The translations under genes and the position numbers were made by a program. DNA of 25,753 nucleotides, taken from IMG/VR virus record IMGVR_UViG_3300023172_000174, positions 1 through 25,753 of that record. The stretch is one strand, 5' to 3'. Under the pieces are notes generated by a model that saw nothing but the letters and a program-made list of their open reading frames with translations, did not search any database and was not told where the DNA came from. Of this stretch, positions 9,875 through 19,358 are shown piece by piece (positions within the stretch are counted from its first letter, which is position 1; each line of letters starts with the position of its first letter). This DNA comes from a virus.

Positions 9875-12382
9875 TTAGTCGGTAATTTCTATAAGATCTG
9901 ACCCAGAAAGAGTTTGCCTGTTGAAATAAGTGCTAACCTTCATTTCAAAGGTTGCTTTAAAATCCTTTTCAATTTTAGGCATGACTACTATCAATTGTTG
10001 TGTCATAACTTTGTCAGGGCGAGTCATATCATAGTCCAAACTCAACTGATCATAAAAGAACGTATCCCTAATATACAACGCCAACTCAAAACCTGCGCTG
10101 TAGTCAATTTTACCGCGAGAGTTGTATAACGTGTATACGCAAGCACGACCTTCGTACTTCAATTGGTTAATAGGATAACCACCTTTTACAATAGACTTCT
10201 GAGTACCACCACCATCTTCTTTACGGTATGGTTCACGCCAGTATCTTGCTTTAGCATCTGCTTCCTTTTTACCGTCAACTGCTTCGCGGATACCATTGGC
10301 AGGATTATAGTATCCTTCCGTAACCTGTAATCGGAAGTTCTTAAATTCTTTTGCCGAAGAAATACCTTCCATCAACCATGCGTGTAGGTAAAACTGACGG
10401 GCAAGATCCTGCCTATCTTTTACTATGGGCACAAACTCAAGTGAAGTCTTAGATCCTGGTGCGCCAAAGAACTTCGACATTGTACTAGATTTTGACAATC
10501 GGGTTCTACTTGTAATCGGAGCATCCATCTTATCAGGATTATAAACTGGATCTGCTACGATAGTCCTAGTTGCCGCCTGTTTGTTTTTGGGCGTAAAGGT
10601 CTTAGAAGCACGTTCCAAAGGATTGCCGAGCAACGTGTAACCGAATCTAGGGGTCGGTTCGCTACTGCCAGTTCTTTTCATTTCATACGGTGCTGATGGT
10701 GCAGGATCTTTATATTTTTCAGATATTCTATTTTCGTCAAGCAAAGAACCGATACACAGCGGACCATTAGTTTGCATCTCAGGCGCAGTGGTTGCATCAG
10801 CAGCACCGTCCATTGTACGCAACTTTGATCGAATCTCTGCTGTACTCGGCGTCCAGTTAAAATAGTAACTGTATGTGTCATGTTTAGCGATTTTATCTTC
10901 TAATGCACCATCCTCGTCAATAACAACTTTGCGTACAGCAAATGGAGAAGTCTTGTTCCAAACTTCCCACCATTTAGTTGGATTGCCATAGTAATCATAC
11001 AGTGGTTCGTGCACAATCTCAGATTCTGGAGAAGTCATTGCATAACCTTGGTTCGGTCCCAGAGGTCCTGCTGCTACCCAGAAGTCTGGATCGGTATGCA
11101 CCGCTGATCCGTCAAAATTCATTGACTGTCGGACTACGTGATTTGCCTTTGCGTTCCACCCCCACTCATACTGATAGCTTGGTTTGATGCCAGTTCCCAT
11201 ATCGCTAGTGCCGTCATGGCGAGTTTCGCCAGTCCATGGTGGGTAGTCTCTAGTGGGAGGAGGAGGACTATAAGCACCACCAGCACCTGTACCACCAGCA
11301 ACTTTTGCAAGTTTAGCATTTATAGCATTCGTCGCGTGATCAGCGCGATAAGCATCATCTGCCTGTTCTGCTTTAGTGGCAAAGTTTGAAATGTGTGCAC
11401 TATGCGCCTCTTCAGAATATTTTGCATATTTGGCAGTCCATGCTTCTAACGCACGACCTACCAAGTTTCCGTGGAATACTGTGTTCTTTCCTTGCGTGTC
11501 GTCGCCGCCACCCGTAAACAATGAACCAAAGAAATGAAACTGCTCGCCGCCAATTTTACCTTTCTCTCCGATGAGACGTAGATCTTTGGAAGATATCACT
11601 GTGTTTTTACCAGCAGAAGTTGTAATATGTTCCTCTGCTGACATTCTAATGCCACGGCGAGCATTAGGTATAATATCTCTGTTAGACAAAATACGAAAAT
11701 CTTTTTTGGTAATTATCTTGTGTTCATGAGCAGTGAAGTCTACAACATCACCCCAAACCTTGGTGTCTTTGTTTCCACGAACGATAGTCTGATGCGCGTC
11801 ACCAGTTTCGGTGATATATGTACCATGTACCGAGTGATTGTGATTACCACCAACATCAACGTTGTAGGAACCACCGACCGTCAGATTATAGTTTCCGTTG
11901 ACCGTTAGATTGAGGTCACCGTCATATGTTAGATTACCTTCGCCCTGTACTATAACTTCGTGATCAGCACCGACAACCTGAATTTGATGGGTCCGAGAAG
12001 CAACTAGGACGGATCCGTCTTGTTTGAGTTCTACACCTGCGCCAGTATGATGCTTGATAAGGATTCTCTGATTCCCAGGAGTATCATCGATCTCAAAAGA
12101 ATGTCCGGAAGGTGTTTCATTTGCCTGATTAAAAGGAAAAATGGAAGTGGTACCAACTGGGACATCAAAACTAACACCCATGGTGCTCCCGCGCATCCAA
12201 AGATCATTGATTCTTACGCCACGTCCAGGAGCACTAACATTACTCGCAAACCAATTATATCGTAATGGGTATTCGCCAGTAGGATCCGCTGATCCGTCTA
12301 AAGGAACGCCAGTAGTGAGTTCTTTACCTTGTTCTTCAGGATTGCTTATACGATCCGTGACTTTATTAGATCCAGTTGTCAT
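9875..12382 (-). CDS. 5: Central spike: VgrG/gp5-type beta-helix fused to a degenerate Hedgehog/M15-like domain
   Basis: The protein has 835 aa. Residues about 91-125 (PSGHSFEIDDTPGNQRI onward) match the region that leads into the needle of gp5 and VgrG proteins. Residues about 154-212 form octapeptide-like beta-helix repeats such as GNYNLTVG and GSYNVDVG, as in the trimeric needle of T4 gp5. Residues 310-362 are Ala-rich with A-x(2-3)-A spacing and may be coiled or helical. Proline-rich linkers follow. The C-terminal part (about 650-785) has FRLQVTEGYYNP and LKYEGRAC, very like the VTEGW and LHYEGRAVD blocks of Hedgehog and M15-type peptidase folds, but the zinc-ligand His and Asp are replaced. 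The OB fold and lysozyme of gp5 are not here; they are in the 300-aa protein upstream. It overlaps the amidase gene by one base. Confidence 0.75.
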   Translation of the reverse strand: MTTGSNKVTDRISNPEEQGKELTTGVPLDGSADPTGEYPLRYNWFASNVSAPGRGVRINDLWMRGSTMGVSFDVPVGTTSIFPFNQANETPSGHSFEIDDTPGNQRILIKHHTGAGVELKQDGSVLVASRTHQIQVVGADHEVIVQGEGNLTYDGDLNLTVNGNYNLTVGGSYNVDVGGNHNHSVHGTYITETGDAHQTIVRGNKDTKVWGDVVDFTAHEHKIITKKDFRILSNRDIIPNARRGIRMSAEEHITTSAGKNTVISSKDLRLIGEKGKIGGEQFHFFGSLFTGGGDDTQGKNTVFHGNLVGRALEAWTAKYAKYSEEAHSAHISNFATKAEQADDAYRADHATNAINAKLAKVAGGTGAGGAYSPPPPTRDYPPWTGETRHDGTSDMGTGIKPSYQYEWGWNAKANHVVRQSMNFDGSAVHTDPDFWVAAGPLGPNQGYAMTSPESEIVHEPLYDYYGNPTKWWEVWNKTSPFAVRKVVIDEDGALEDKIAKHDTYSYYFNWTPSTAEIRSKLRTMDGAADATTAPEMQTNGPLCIGSLLDENRISEKYKDPAPSAPYEMKRTGSSEPTPRFGYTLLGNPLERASKTFTPKNKQAATRTIVADPVYNPDKMDAPITSRTRLSKSSTMSKFFGAPGSKTSLEFVPIVKDRQDLARQFYLHAWLMEGISSAKEFKNFRLQVTEGYYNPANGIREAVDGKKEADAKARYWREPYRKEDGGGTQKSIVKGGYPINQLKYEGRACVYTLYNSRGKIDYSAGFELALYIRDTFFYDQLSLDYDMTRPDKVMTQQLIVVMPKIEKDFKATFEMKVSTYFNRQTLSGSDLIEITD

Positions 12383-13881
12383 TAGAAATTTTTCTCCAGC
12401 ATATCAGGATCCTTAGTTAATACATCTGGTCCCGACCCCTCAAGTGCCTTCAGGATATCCTGAGGAGACAATGCAGGGTCGTTCGGTGGGTCTAGGTATA
12501 ATGATTGCTTGTTGAAATTATTGTACACATAGTCTCGTACATCAAATCCTGGGTCGTCTTGAGATATATCTACGTCCATATGCCCTAATGCTTGACCACC
12601 AGGATATTGATCAAAGAACGTTCGGAATATTTGATATAAACTATTATACTGTGATTGCGTAATACTCCTCGGGGAGATTTCCATTTCTATCGCTCTAGTA
12701 TCTGTGGGAACGTTGACGCCGCCCACTAGACACACGCCAATAGAATATGCATTATGTCCATTGGTTGGACAGTGACTGCCAGCACTATTCAAGGGGACGC
12801 CACGTTCTACTGCGCCATTGCGTTGAATTATTAGGTGATATGCGTTATCACCAGCACCTGTTAGAGTAGTTAGTTCTGACGCAGAAAGGTTCGCATTTGT
12901 AAAAGTTTCTGACCAGTGAACAATAATTTCAGAGATATCTCTTGTCATACTTGCCATCTCTGCTTCTAATTCTTCAACCGAAGAAATAAACTGACCTCCT
13001 GGTTGTATATTTTCTTCACCGATCTTATACGATTCCGGTCCTCGATACCCTATCAACTCAAAATCTTCTTCCTCAGTTAAACTTTGAATTGTGCCTTTTG
13101 TTTGCTCAGCGATACTTTTAAGCGGAGCGAGATCTCCTCCATTCTCACCTTGTATCGTGGCAGCAACTAGGTCGTTTGTGGTGGTATCTGATACCTCTGA
13201 AGTGTCAATAATTCCTGCAGCATCAGAAACAGCATCGACTATACTCTCCGCTGCTACAGTAGATTGCGGTCCTAAAATATTATTAGCAGAAACCAGACTT
13301 TGATTGCTTGTTATTTGATTAATAGTAACCGCAGCAGCATCGCTTATACTAGCAGGGTTTCCTAACGCATCTACTATAGCATTAGACCCAAGAGCATCAT
13401 TAATAATATTTTTCGTATCGTTTATTTGGTTTAGTGCAGCGTTTTGCACGAATCCTGGTAAACCTGCTGAAAATATAGAATCGTCTACTTTGTTCAGAAC
13501 AGAGTTTAATTTTTTATCGTATAATGCTTTTATTCCTGCAAGTTGATTTTCGACATTGACTTGAGGCGCACCGCCAAGTTTTCCTAAAATGTTGTTGCTT
13601 TGTAATACAGTCGACAATACTTGCTTGCTCATTCCTGGTGTAGACCCGACCATAACATCCGCAACTTGATCATAAAGATCGGTAGGGATATTTGATCTGT
13701 TCGTTAAAGAAACACCAGGATTATTTCCGATGAAATTGTTTATCAAATTGTTTATTTGAGTAACTGCTTCTTGTGGTAGATTACCACCAGTCATTGCTTG
13801 TAATGCAGCATCGGTTCCGTTCGATCTCGTCAAACCTTGTGCAATAAGTGTATTCAAAGAAGATACGTTAGCGATTGCCAT
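12382..13881 (-). CDS. Tail-associated N-acetylmuramoyl-L-alanine amidase-like protein
   Basis: The protein has 499 aa. Residues 1 to about 300 are Ala/Asn/Ser-rich, low in motifs and probably helical. Residues about 318-460 are an Amidase_2/PGRP domain close to T7 lysozyme: IIVHWSE (H322), NAYHLIIQRNG (Y348), GSH (H370), and SIGVCLVGG (380-388), which is identical to the T7 protein over those nine residues. The third block is GHMDVD (H434) then DDPGFD (D443). H322, H434 and D443 would bind zinc, with Asp in place of the T7 Cys. The Lys that sits two residues before that ligand in T7 lysozyme is Gln here (Q441). It would cut the amide bond between muramic acid and L-Ala. It lies between hub and spike genes with TAATG overlaps on both sides, so it is probably carried in the virion. 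Confidence 0.8.
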   Translation of the reverse strand: MAIANVSSLNTLIAQGLTRSNGTDAALQAMTGGNLPQEAVTQINNLINNFIGNNPGVSLTNRSNIPTDLYDQVADVMVGSTPGMSKQVLSTVLQSNNILGKLGGAPQVNVENQLAGIKALYDKKLNSVLNKVDDSIFSAGLPGFVQNAALNQINDTKNIINDALGSNAIVDALGNPASISDAAAVTINQITSNQSLVSANNILGPQSTVAAESIVDAVSDAAGIIDTSEVSDTTTNDLVAATIQGENGGDLAPLKSIAEQTKGTIQSLTEEEDFELIGYRGPESYKIGEENIQPGGQFISSVEELEAEMASMTRDISEIIVHWSETFTNANLSASELTTLTGAGDNAYHLIIQRNGAVERGVPLNSAGSHCPTNGHNAYSIGVCLVGGVNVPTDTRAIEMEISPRSITQSQYNSLYQIFRTFFDQYPGGQALGHMDVDISQDDPGFDVRDYVYNNFNKQSLYLDPPNDPALSPQDILKALEGSGPDVLTKDPDMLEKNF

Positions 13882-14906
13882 TATTCAGGAACCTCATCAA
13901 CAGGAGATATGAAGTTCAAGATACCTTCTTTACCGTCTTTAACATATGTCAAACCTTTGATTGGCGGATAATTACCAATCTCAGTTGCCATAGCAGGCAA
14001 GGTATCGTCGTACATACCGTTGGTCCCCTCAACCAGAACTTCGTCTAACATAAATTTAATACTCTTTGGCGTTGCGCTGTTTACAATACGCCAAGGATAA
14101 TGGTTTCGCTCATTATCTAGGTGATAAATGTCAGGGTCGTTTGGTATTCCTGGGAATCCATCAACTCTGGCATCATCTTCCTGTAACTCGCGAACTTGCA
14201 TGCCACCGATAGAGTGCGTAACTGTATCATAATACCATGCAACGATGTCGCTGAACACTGCAGTAATACCATCTACAGGTTTATACGTGCCGTTGACAAT
14301 CATCGGAGGAACAACTGGTGCATCTTTCCAAAGATACCCATACTTCCAAGATTCGGTAGAAGGTTCGCCCCATTCAGGTGCTTGTCCATATGGCGTCGGT
14401 GGCGGTGTTCTTCCTGGTGCGCCAGTTCCATCAGCACCAGTTTCAGGTTCATACCAAAAAGTATAGGTTTCACCAATGACTCTCTCGTACAAGAACTTTT
14501 CTTTACCTGTTTCATTGACGTGGTGAAACTCGTCCTCATACATATGGTCGCCTGCTTGGCCACCTTGCGCTTCCCACCACAACGGCATTTCCATTTCACC
14601 GTGAATATACAGCATACCAGTGCCGTAGGTAAGATGGTCTATGTCAGGAACTTCTTCCGTGAGCGATACCCAACCATCTGCACGATCTTTGTGTACTAGG
14701 CGACCATCATTTTTAGATGAACCGTGAGAATTTAGGGAACCGAATCGCTCGAAGTCACGGACACCGTATCTTCCGATATTAGATAAGTTCTCGATCAACC
14801 ACTGTTTAATTCTCTCAGCATGGATTGCTTCAAGTTCTCGTAACCCAATACGATCCAAAAAGTTTTTGATATACTGATTAATTTCGCTGAGGTTTATAGT
14901 TGGCAT
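13881..14906 (-). CDS. Conserved-position hub protein of unknown function
   Basis: The protein has 341 aa and I do not recognise the family. It starts with an amphipathic helical stretch (residues 1-50), is rich in Trp, Tyr, His and acidic residues, and has a Pro/Gly-rich loop around residues 160-180 (GAPGRTPPPTPYG). No signal peptide, membrane segment or catalytic motif was noticed. Both ends overlap neighbours by one base (TAATG): the OB/lysozyme gene upstream and the amidase gene downstream. Because every neighbour belongs to the central hub and spike, it is likely a structural hub or spike component, or a clamp holding the amidase. That is inference from position only. Confidence 0.6.
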   Translation of the reverse strand: MPTINLSEINQYIKNFLDRIGLRELEAIHAERIKQWLIENLSNIGRYGVRDFERFGSLNSHGSSKNDGRLVHKDRADGWVSLTEEVPDIDHLTYGTGMLYIHGEMEMPLWWEAQGGQAGDHMYEDEFHHVNETGKEKFLYERVIGETYTFWYEPETGADGTGAPGRTPPPTPYGQAPEWGEPSTESWKYGYLWKDAPVVPPMIVNGTYKPVDGITAVFSDIVAWYYDTVTHSIGGMQVRELQEDDARVDGFPGIPNDPDIYHLDNERNHYPWRIVNSATPKSIKFMLDEVLVEGTNGMYDDTLPAMATEIGNYPPIKGLTYVKDGKEGILNFISPVDEVPE

Positions 14907-15808
14907 TATCTCGCTCCAAGTCCTCCGTAAATTCCTTTCGCCTTGCCTATAGCACCACCAACGCTACAAGCAGTCCTAGGGTCGACATAATATTTAACTA
15001 GTTGCGCGACCTGTCCGTTACCTTTTTCTTCAATACCGTCAACTTTCTCTCCATACAAGTTGCCTTCTATCTCGCGTGCGCGCAAGACTTTGGACATGGC
15101 CATCGAACGAGCAGTTTTTAGTTCGTGAAGAACATATAGTAACTGCCCCTCAAAATCTTTATCGTCTCTAGTTGGTGCTAATCGACTTATATAAGCAAAA
15201 AATCTATGATACCGAGGACTGTTAGGTTGCCATCCAGCGATACCTATACCGTTCCCAGTTTGCGTAGGATCTAATCCGCTGACCTCTTGCAAAACACCTG
15301 TAATAGAAGATGCTTGTTTTGCGTTAAACCCATTATCTATAAAGTATCTAGCAACATCTCCTGCTGACGCTGGACCAGAATTTTGCACCTCTGGGTCAAT
15401 AGCGTCCGCATTAGATTGTTGAAACGAATACGTGAATGGATTGGTTGCCATATCTTCACGATTAGATGCTTGTACCGTAGTCGGAAACTCGATACGAGGA
15501 AGCGAACCCAAAACCAGTGGCAACTGAGAAGTAGCACCGTCTAAGAAAAATCCGAAAACTAGTGCACCAGGAAGTATCATGGTGCTAGTTCCTAATCCAG
15601 ACACGCCATATGTATCACCAGGATTCATAACTTGCGCCCAAGGAAGATCGCGCTGAGGGATACCAGACTCGTCAGCAACGTCAGTGTGGATACCATGTAT
15701 GCGAATCTTTACTCGTCCCTCTAATCCGTAGGGAGGAGTATTATCAATTACATTAGCAACAAACCAACGTACATTATCTCCGTAATATTCGTTTTCCCAA
15801 GTCTTCAT
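14906..15808 (-). CDS. 5: gp5-type OB-fold hub protein with a phage-lysozyme-2-like domain
   Basis: The protein has 300 aa. Residues about 11-106 match the N-terminal OB domain of T4 gp5: DNVRWFVANVIDN, GRVKIRIHGIH, IPQRDLPWAQV, and GALVFGFFLDG followed by LPLVLGSLP. Residues about 148-250 resemble the phage tail lysozyme family (Phage_lysozyme2): ARYFIDNGFNAKQASSITGVL, SGLDP, then GIGIAGW. In that family a Glu directly precedes the SG(L/F)xP motif. Here that position is V176 and a Glu sits one residue earlier (E175), and the usual GIAQW reads GIAGW. The protein therefore supplies the OB and lysozyme-like parts of gp5 without the needle. It follows the gp27-like hub gene with a TAATG overlap, as expected because gp27 and gp5 form one complex in T4. 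Confidence 0.8.
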   Translation of the reverse strand: MKTWENEYYGDNVRWFVANVIDNTPPYGLEGRVKIRIHGIHTDVADESGIPQRDLPWAQVMNPGDTYGVSGLGTSTMILPGALVFGFFLDGATSQLPLVLGSLPRIEFPTTVQASNREDMATNPFTYSFQQSNADAIDPEVQNSGPASAGDVARYFIDNGFNAKQASSITGVLQEVSGLDPTQTGNGIGIAGWQPNSPRYHRFFAYISRLAPTRDDKDFEGQLLYVLHELKTARSMAMSKVLRAREIEGNLYGEKVDGIEEKGNGQVAQLVKYYVDPRTACSVGGAIGKAKGIYGGLGAR

Positions 15809-17187
15809 TACGCAGTGCCTCCATCAAGGTCTGCAACTTTAGTTACAGATACAGCGACCTCGTGGGTGGTTGACTGAAAAATATTTCTACACTTATGTAT
15901 TAGATAAGTACCAGATAAATCTTTATTAAATTCTTCGTCGCCAGCAGTTTCAACGTTGGTGTTTTTAAAATTAATTTTTATTAAGTCGCCGACAGTAACG
16001 CCAGATGCGCCGTTTTCAAGTTGTGACCAAAACGAGATTCCTGGCAATATTAAGTCAATCATGTTTTTATTGAACAGACTCTTTACAGCATAATGCCTTA
16101 ATTTGTTGAGTGCTTCTGACTGATCGAACACATCGTGATAACTATTCCTGTATCCGTAGGTTCCATAAGAAGTTACGAGGTTTATATAACGGGCATCAAA
16201 CTCATCGAGTGTTTTAGTCTCGTTGTCGATAGTAAGTTTCTGTTCGTCATCAAAAACATTTTGTTTGCCTCCCTTCATCATACCACCTTCAGTGTCCATC
16301 TTCTCTATAAGATCGGTTACACCAAAATGCCTAGAATATCTTTGACTGCTAAACACATCATAAGAACTCATCATAGCACCAGCAGAACTTTCTGCTGCTA
16401 GTTTCAAGGTGTCTTGTAAGTTCTCAAATGAGATTTTCTTTACGATAAATGCCTGCTTCGAAATGTCTGCACCACCAGCAGATTGTCCTCTCGCCTGAGA
16501 ATATAGGACAGGAAGTTCTTCGTTCCAGATTTCTTTTTTGTACATATCCTCTAAATTACCAAAACGAATAACATCTTTGCCGCCATTTAATTGTTGATCA
16601 TAAATCGTTTGATATGCATAAAAAGGTGCGCCAATTTTAGTTGTTGCTCTGTCCATTAACCATTCAACTGCTTCTAAAGGACTAATGTATGGCGTAATAA
16701 TTCTTACAGGTGACTGCTTACTTTTTTGCCCGTCCATATAGTTTCTATCAGTTCGCACTTCTAAGTGGTTCTTTAGTATAGACTCAGATATATCTTCTAA
16801 TTTACCAGTGTAAGAACGAGAGATTTTTATAAACTGATCTTTGTATGCATGAGGCGCAATCAGGTTTAAATGGTACATTTCACTACGCTCACTCAGTTTC
16901 CTGACTTGAACAATAGATACGATGTTAAACTTTATATCTACCTTTGCTTGAGGTATTTCCGGAATCTGAATACTCAAGTCTATTTGCTCAGTGCCTTTCA
17001 ACTTTATTTCGTCAAACACACCAAGATCGTCAAATACCAGTATTTGTCCAGTAACATAAGGTTTTTCTAGATCTTCGAAAAAATCTATTTCGGCGATCAT
17101 TTGTTTTACGTCATAGTCATCGCTCAGTCTGTCTGCGCTGATTACTGCTTTCGTAATGACATATTCTTGTTGTACATTCTGTACCAT
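15808..17187 (-). CDS. 27: gp27-like baseplate hub protein
   Basis: The protein has 459 aa against 391 aa for T4 gp27. The N-terminal part has YVTGQILVFDDLGVFDEIKL (residues 44-63) followed by EQIDLSIQIP and a long beta-rich region, a pattern shared by gp27 and other trimeric hub proteins. The C-terminal GVTVGDLIKINFK and LSGTYLIHKCRNIF also fit tail hub proteins, which use such modules to connect tube and spike. In T4, gp27 forms a trimeric ring holding gp5. Here it is directly upstream of the OB-fold gp5 part, with a one-base overlap, and one base after the gp53 stop. Similarity to gp27 is by pattern and position and would need a profile search to confirm. Confidence 0.7.
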   Translation of the reverse strand: MVQNVQQEYVITKAVISADRLSDDYDVKQMIAEIDFFEDLEKPYVTGQILVFDDLGVFDEIKLKGTEQIDLSIQIPEIPQAKVDIKFNIVSIVQVRKLSERSEMYHLNLIAPHAYKDQFIKISRSYTGKLEDISESILKNHLEVRTDRNYMDGQKSKQSPVRIITPYISPLEAVEWLMDRATTKIGAPFYAYQTIYDQQLNGGKDVIRFGNLEDMYKKEIWNEELPVLYSQARGQSAGGADISKQAFIVKKISFENLQDTLKLAAESSAGAMMSSYDVFSSQRYSRHFGVTDLIEKMDTEGGMMKGGKQNVFDDEQKLTIDNETKTLDEFDARYINLVTSYGTYGYRNSYHDVFDQSEALNKLRHYAVKSLFNKNMIDLILPGISFWSQLENGASGVTVGDLIKINFKNTNVETAGDEEFNKDLSGTYLIHKCRNIFQSTTHEVAVSVTKVADLDGGTA

Positions 17188-18854: not shown

Positions 18855-19358
18855 ATGCCGAGGACTTACAAGGGGAAGTACACAGTAAAACACCCCAGCA
18901 AGTACAAAGGGAATCTTGAGGAGGTCGTGTACAGGTCTAACTGGGAAAAATCAGTTATGATTTGGTTGGACAATAACTCCGAAGTTGCCAAATGGAACAG
19001 CGAAGATTTTATCATACCATACTACTACGACGTCGACAAAAGGTGGCACAAATATCACGTTGACTTCTGGATTAAGTTCAAAAGCGGAAACGTATTGCTA
19101 GTAGAGGTCAAACCTAAAAAGCAAACTCAACCGCCCAAGTCTAAGAACCCTCGTAGCAAACGCTCACTCAACGAAGCATTCGCATATATCAAAAACCGCA
19201 ACAAGTGGGAAGCAGCAGAGCAGGTGGCGAAGGATAATGGTTACAAATTCGCGATATGGACTGAAGATGAGTTGACGAAAATGAAAATCCTCAACAAGAC
19301 TCCAGGAAAACTGAAGAAACTAAAACCGCTCGCTCCGTTCAAGAAAAAGAAAAGTTAG
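18855..19358 (+). CDS. 4: Head completion protein gp4 (PD-(D/E)XK nuclease-like)
   Basis: The protein has 167 aa, near the 150 aa of T4 gp4, and lines up from the first Met: KYKGNLEEVVYRSNWEKSV matches the T4 KYRGDPKKITYRSNWEKFF region, and VEVKPKKQTQPP matches IEIKPKKETQPP. The nuclease-like core is visible as E31, D70 in HVDFWI, and E84 with K86 in VEVKP, as in TnsA-type and PD-(D/E)XK folds. In T4 it finishes the filled head before tail joining. The C-terminus is Lys-rich. It is alone on the plus strand inside the minus-strand cluster. Its TAG stop overlaps the stop of the tape measure gene by four bases, and no ribosome binding site is seen before its ATG. Confidence 0.9.
   Translation: MPRTYKGKYTVKHPSKYKGNLEEVVYRSNWEKSVMIWLDNNSEVAKWNSEDFIIPYYYDVDKRWHKYHVDFWIKFKSGNVLLVEVKPKKQTQPPKSKNPRSKRSLNEAFAYIKNRNKWEAAEQVAKDNGYKFAIWTEDELTKMKILNKTPGKLKKLKPLAPFKKKKS

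Follow-up and report, generated by a model that had tools for sequence, protein, structure and literature searches.

A gp5-type tail spike divided between genes, with lysozyme and amidase active sites retained in different clades of related viral contigs

Comparison of a T4-type tail operon with T4 gp5 and with related contigs shows that the equivalent of phage T4 gp5 is divided between separate genes, with an amidase gene lying between its two halves. The operon was found in a fragment from one viral record, IMGVR_UViG_3300023172_000174, and we refer to the whole stretch analysed, 25,753 bases, as the window. Relatives across the sampled group share the split, which is therefore no peculiarity of one contig, and a T4-type spike thus need not be one chain. 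Splitting of gp5 is not in itself unique; what is new is the enzyme state, in which the glutamate of a lysozyme-like domain is lost and an amidase site kept, or the reverse. We found no published account in the open-access literature of a split gp5 with such a lysozyme-to-amidase change.

The tail operon lies on the minus strand of the window, and its genes are named from family match and place. It runs from a ssDNA-binding protein, DNA end protector, tail tube, a hub protein in the gp26 place and a tape-measure-like protein, through a gp48-like tail tube cap, gp53 and a gp27-like protein, to the split-gp5 block, gp25, gp6 and further baseplate genes. A head-closure / gp4-like gene (18855-19358) runs against this direction, on the plus strand. 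The gp27-like hub protein (459 aa; 15808..17187, minus strand, as are all features that follow) matches a phrog_350 tail protein at 1e-38, adjoins gp53/gp48, and is encoded directly upstream of a 300-aa protein (14906..15808) with an OB fold and a lysozyme-like domain, which is the N-terminal half of the gp5 equivalent. Next come p341, a protein of 341 aa (13881..14906); a 499-aa protein (12382..13881), in which an N-terminal part of 290 aa with no assigned fold precedes an Amidase_2 domain (12547..12942); and a spike protein of 835 aa (9875..12382), made up of an 80-aa N-terminal segment, a beta-helix and a C-terminal domain. The open reading frames and the DNA bear out the original prediction of four genes joined by TAATG overlaps, and TAATG is present at all four junctions when that between the gp27-like and OB genes is included. 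One-base overlaps also occur at gp25/gp6 and gp6/orf509, and are hence not special to gp5.

Placement of the OB half and the beta-helix half of gp5 in separate genes had likewise been predicted, and is upheld by three kinds of match. In Pfam, the 300-aa protein scores 39.4 bits with Gp5_OB (PF06714; cut-off 25) and 37.1 bits with Phage_lysozyme2 (PF18013; curated cut-off 28.2; residues 149-243, 15080..15364), and the 835-aa protein scores 22.0 bits with Gp5_C, above cut-off, and 23 bits with Gp5_trimer_C, below cut-off, the best-scoring stretch of the latter being residues 98-187 (11822..12091). Both proteins match phrog_430, at positions 15-108 and 334-520 respectively, and both match the T4 gp5 sequence itself, the 300-aa protein at gp5 residues 3-99 and the 835-aa protein at residues 376-519 (E 8e-7). 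Because the OB and beta-helix proteins each align with a different end of the gp5 profiles, and of T4 gp5 as well, the division of the chain is genuine, and these matches identify the 835-aa protein as a putative triple-stranded beta-helix. The amidase gene expected between the two halves is there as well, with Amidase_2 scoring 45 bits in the 499-aa protein. In the window and its kin, OB fold, lysozyme and spike are distributed over separate genes and not joined in one polypeptide. The four genes are real, because they occur in the same order in kin contigs and the dN/dS across the block is 0.05-0.20 relative to the nearest kin; a sequencing artefact as the cause of the split is not supported, given the identical split in these contigs. 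Genes for Gp5_OB were counted in four kin contigs of 52-152 kb in a first search and in seven of 61-152 kb in a second, with the contig of L014 in both. Each, those of 84-152 kb among them, has a single Gp5_OB gene over cut-off, at the block position, and neither a complete gp5 elsewhere nor a second Gp5_OB gene over cut-off was found in these contigs, none of which is a record certified complete. The weaker second matches to Gp5_OB are open frames of spike length.

Kin came from searches of IMG/VR, first with the 300-, 341- and 499-aa proteins as queries and then with alignments, and 80 of more than 430 relatives were kept. These fall into clades that we label A to D; because gene content and active-site state, already known to us, were used to assign the labels, agreement between clade and trait is partly by construction, and a tree of the gp27-like protein provides an independent check. 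Clade A, which includes the window, has the order gp27, OB-Lys, p341, amidase, spike, kept down to 32-38% identity in p341, and its 300-aa protein has an invariant LGA[RI] at the C-terminus. Clade B is without p341, and the C-terminal domain of its spike is mostly a gene of its own, of ∼175-245 aa (445 aa in L094). Clade C consists of OB-Lys, an amidase of ∼500 aa, and a spike with its C-terminal domain, and clade D of OB-Lys, a middle protein of 700-750 aa, and a spike whose C-terminal domain is either fused or separate. The split order is thus kept across the related genomes surveyed, and in all sampled loci the amidase gene is located between OB-Lys and spike. Junctions in kin are 1-nt overlaps, 4-nt overlaps or gaps, such that translational coupling is common but not fixed.

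Phages outside the group differ in how gp5 is encoded. T4 gp5/gp27 (PDB 1K28, 5IV5) resembles the window in having an OB fold, lysozyme, triple beta-helix and adjoining gp27-like hub gene, but it is one chain with an active T4L-like lysozyme (43% identical to T4L; PMC3004832) and with no amidase between its parts. The cultured Rhizobium phage RHph_I1_18 (MN988519.1) has the same split as the window, with a gp27-like protein, an OB-PF18013 protein of 300 aa, a 116-aa gene and a 635-aa spike; unlike the window, it has the lysozyme Glu, an M15 motif (HPTGRAVD) in the spike C-terminus, and neither amidase nor p341 between the halves. Methylophilales phage Melnitz is split too, into an OB-hydrolase gene of 346 aa and a spike gene of 667 aa with a one-base overlap, although its hydrolase is VanY-like (M15), its OB gene is ∼11 kb from the gp27-like gene, and there is no amidase. 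With the split also present in RHph_I1_18 and Melnitz, gp5 splitting already has precedents among deposited genomes, although we found no discussion of it in the open-access literature. It is not discussed in the available part of the Melnitz paper (PMC9004378), and a paper on pelagimyophages describes gp5 as highly divergent and says nothing further on it (PMC7029224). The gp5 proteins of Ochrobactrum phage vB_OspM_OC (808 aa) and Caulobacter phage Cr30 (701 aa) share OB, PF18013 and beta-helix with the window but are single chains in which the Glu is present, with an M15 domain inside that of OC and an M15-like end on that of Cr30. In Agrobacterium phage Atu_ph04 (MF403007.1; L005, L006) the OB-CHAP and spike genes are far from each other on the record (128 kb and 31 kb), and in phage C48C1 an OB fold and a short helix make up a protein of 196 aa. 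The hydrolase that follows the OB fold differs by lineage, being PF18013, M15 or CHAP. We note that the OB-CHAP and spike genes of Atu_ph04 are both annotated as baseplate hub and tail lysozyme.

The lysozyme-like domain of the window is related to that of phi29 gp13 (3CSQ/3CSR). It has no sequence match in the PDB, but an intact relative from clade C, L149, does match phi29 gp13, and the Glu of L149 aligns with gp13 Glu45 (45 being the count along the printed alignment), the suggested catalytic residue (PMC10394673). In a single MAFFT alignment this position is Val176 in the window (codon at 15281..15283, placed by alignment to OC, Cr30 and kin, and to gp13 via L149); it is Val/Ile in clade A and I/V/A/K/T/S/C/R throughout clades A and B. 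Glu is kept at the same position in clades C and D, OC and Cr30. The original prediction of a lysozyme-like domain on the OB gene therefore holds insofar as PF18013 is over cut-off, but the domain is of the phi29-gp13 type and not the T4 type, and is without the catalytic Glu.

The amidase columns were read from one MAFFT and one HMM alignment. T7 lysozyme (1LBA) is a relative of the window amidase and its best PDB match, and H322, H434 and D443 stand at the places of the T7 lysozyme zinc ligands; together with Y348 they are invariant in clade A. Asp replaces Cys130, as in AmpD. The equivalent of T7 lysozyme Lys128 is Gln in the window and variable among kin, such that amidase activity is not certain. 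The zinc ligands are intact in all clade A, B and C loci but L153, and are lost in 12/12 clade D loci, in whose middle protein the amidase domain is recognisable (33-63 bits for the best stretch) with residues other than His/His/Asp at the ligand positions. Among 63 loci, a count that includes the window and near copies, 44 have lost the Glu and have an intact amidase site, 12 have the Glu and have lost the amidase site, six have both, and one has neither. This last locus, L153 (752-3186), is on a 6-kb contig and is the sole surveyed locus with neither lysozyme Glu nor amidase zinc ligands. The gp27 tree, a quick search with 52 rows and several long branches in which L153 is not placed, has one change each for the Glu, the amidase site and p341. 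An independent-pairs test on this tree provides one pair only and hence has no power; with one loss each, the inverse pattern amounts to two events and carries no statistical weight. Furthermore, clade C keeps both enzymes, so retaining one does not force the loss of the other. Within each lineage the retained site is invariant and the other drifts, which matches what selection on one enzyme would predict.

We consider it probable that the amidase is the entry hydrolase and that the lysozyme and peptidase domains persist in a structural role. All four clades have the amidase-bearing gene, including loci in which its active site is dead, and it is thus an integral part of the block, so of the two "extra proteins" of the original prediction only p341 is an addition, specific to one clade. 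In the hub that we propose, a gp27-like trimer would hold the OB domain of the 300-aa protein, and the 835-aa protein would dock via its conserved 80-residue N-terminal segment and form the beta-helix needle, with a peptidase-fold domain that lacks its metal site at the end. The amidase protein would be carried at the hub and open the peptidoglycan at entry, and the Glu-less lysozyme domain is probably retained as a structural or wall-binding part. The lineage would have begun with both enzymes, as in the clade C state. More tentatively, at a little below even odds, we suggest that the contractile hubs of this large group of uncultured phages started with an OB-protein lysozyme and a separate hub amidase, lost either site by lineage, and kept the parts as scaffold, with the split enabling this; if so, the clades preserve the natural traces of wall cutting having passed from one enzyme to another within a puncturing device. 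Clades A/B, C and D offer a ready comparison for asking whether an active wall enzyme is needed in the hub and from which domain it comes, and the same comparison bears on the remaining function of an enzyme domain whose active site is dead. A further caution is that a "tail lysozyme" annotation may be based on a domain without the catalytic residue.

T4 gp5 is cut after the lysozyme at Ser351/Ala352 (PMC3004832), the same place at which the window is split between lysozyme and beta-helix, and it had originally been proposed that the gene boundary substitutes for this maturation cut. An ancestral cleaved gp5 would then have been split at its cleavage site, the boundary replacing T4-like proteolysis, and the break between hydrolase and beta-helix, at a place to which the splits of Melnitz and RHph_I1_18 correspond, is what such a history would leave. 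We nonetheless think it rather unlikely. The idea fits poorly because the lysozyme here looks inactive: the domain that such a cut would free is dead in clades A and B, where the catalytic Glu is gone. Moreover, no cut precursor is known in the lineage, the fused relatives OC and Cr30 present no evidence of cleavage, fused relatives use other enzymes, and the hydrolase behind the OB fold varies among lineages.

The second protein between the halves, p341, belongs to no family of Pfam, PHROGs or NCBIfam. Searches of the phage collection gave no match to it, nor did profile comparison with neighbouring genes or with the middle proteins of other clades; its AF2 model, with a pLDDT of 35, is uninformative. 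It is nevertheless a real clade-specific gene under purifying selection, with dN/dS of 0.13 and 0.10 relative to two kin, and was gained or lost once on the gp27 tree. Relative to the nearest kin, L008, dS is 0.65 in p341, 0.009 in the adjacent amidase and 0.06 in OB, a contrast that points to a recombined (mosaic) allele inside the hub block and suggests that recombination has exchanged p341. Fast adaptive evolution of p341 is not supported, as the divergence from L008 looks like that of a recombined allele and dN/dS with L008 is 0.13. In the L086 locus (1-2010) a p341-like domain ends a longer contig-truncated frame, of which 669 aa are seen. Either p341 or the amidase protein may sit in the virion hub. 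Alternatively, p341, the N-terminal part of the amidase protein, or both could act in assembly, perhaps by helping the spike to fold, and not remain in the virion. Many phage fibres use adjacently encoded helpers (PMC4576200), both proteins are encoded between the spike halves, and p341 is absent from three clades; we nevertheless find this doubtful, as the amidase gene is retained in every clade.

The assignment of the amidase to entry must be weighed against a role in lysis. Amidases of the T7 lysozyme type are often lysis proteins, T7 lysozyme is the best PDB match here, and Amidase_2 occurs at one locus per kin contig where found, all of which would suit a lysis endolysin placed in the tail operon, with a hub that has no active wall enzyme. 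This seems quite unlikely to us, as the amidase carries the 290-aa extra part, is located between the gp5 halves in every clade, and persists as a gene where its site is dead. Furthermore, 5/6 kin contigs encode, far from the block, a small lysozyme of the T4 lysozyme type (PF00959) in open frames of 151-184 aa; it is a natural candidate for lysis, which therefore does not have to depend on the amidase. It is highly improbable that the PF18013 domain retains lysozyme activity through another acid, since the Glu that directly precedes the lost position in this well-conserved domain (Q174-E175-V176) is E, D, T, S, V, A or N in clade A kin and is not conserved.

The structural role proposed above for the peptidase-fold domain concerns spike residues ∼600-810 (9953..10585). 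AF2 modelling of spike residues 396-835 gives a pLDDT of at least 90 in most of the last 230 residues, and the top 23 rows of VIA-align with this model are all Hedgehog or M15 proteins (best Z 5.3, rmsd 3.3 over 109 residues). The best BFVD match is a Peptidase M15A (E 1e-7), with gp5-type proteins also among the best, and plain Foldseek against the PDB gave no significant match for the spike C-terminus. Together these provide moderate support for a predicted Hedgehog/M15 peptidase-like fold. The best fold matches are 3HO5, VanX (1R44) and Ply500 (2VO9), and their H-D-H metal ligands are missing in all four clades, the positions being mostly K/R, V and I/V/L; the same ligands are present in Cr30 and Melnitz. 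We note that the frame for this domain is in pieces in L099 (6740-7913), possibly through sequencing error, and intact in the near-identical L097, and that the separate C-terminal gene of L094 (11725-13062) ends in an extra SleB-type Hydrolase_2 domain (37.6 bits).
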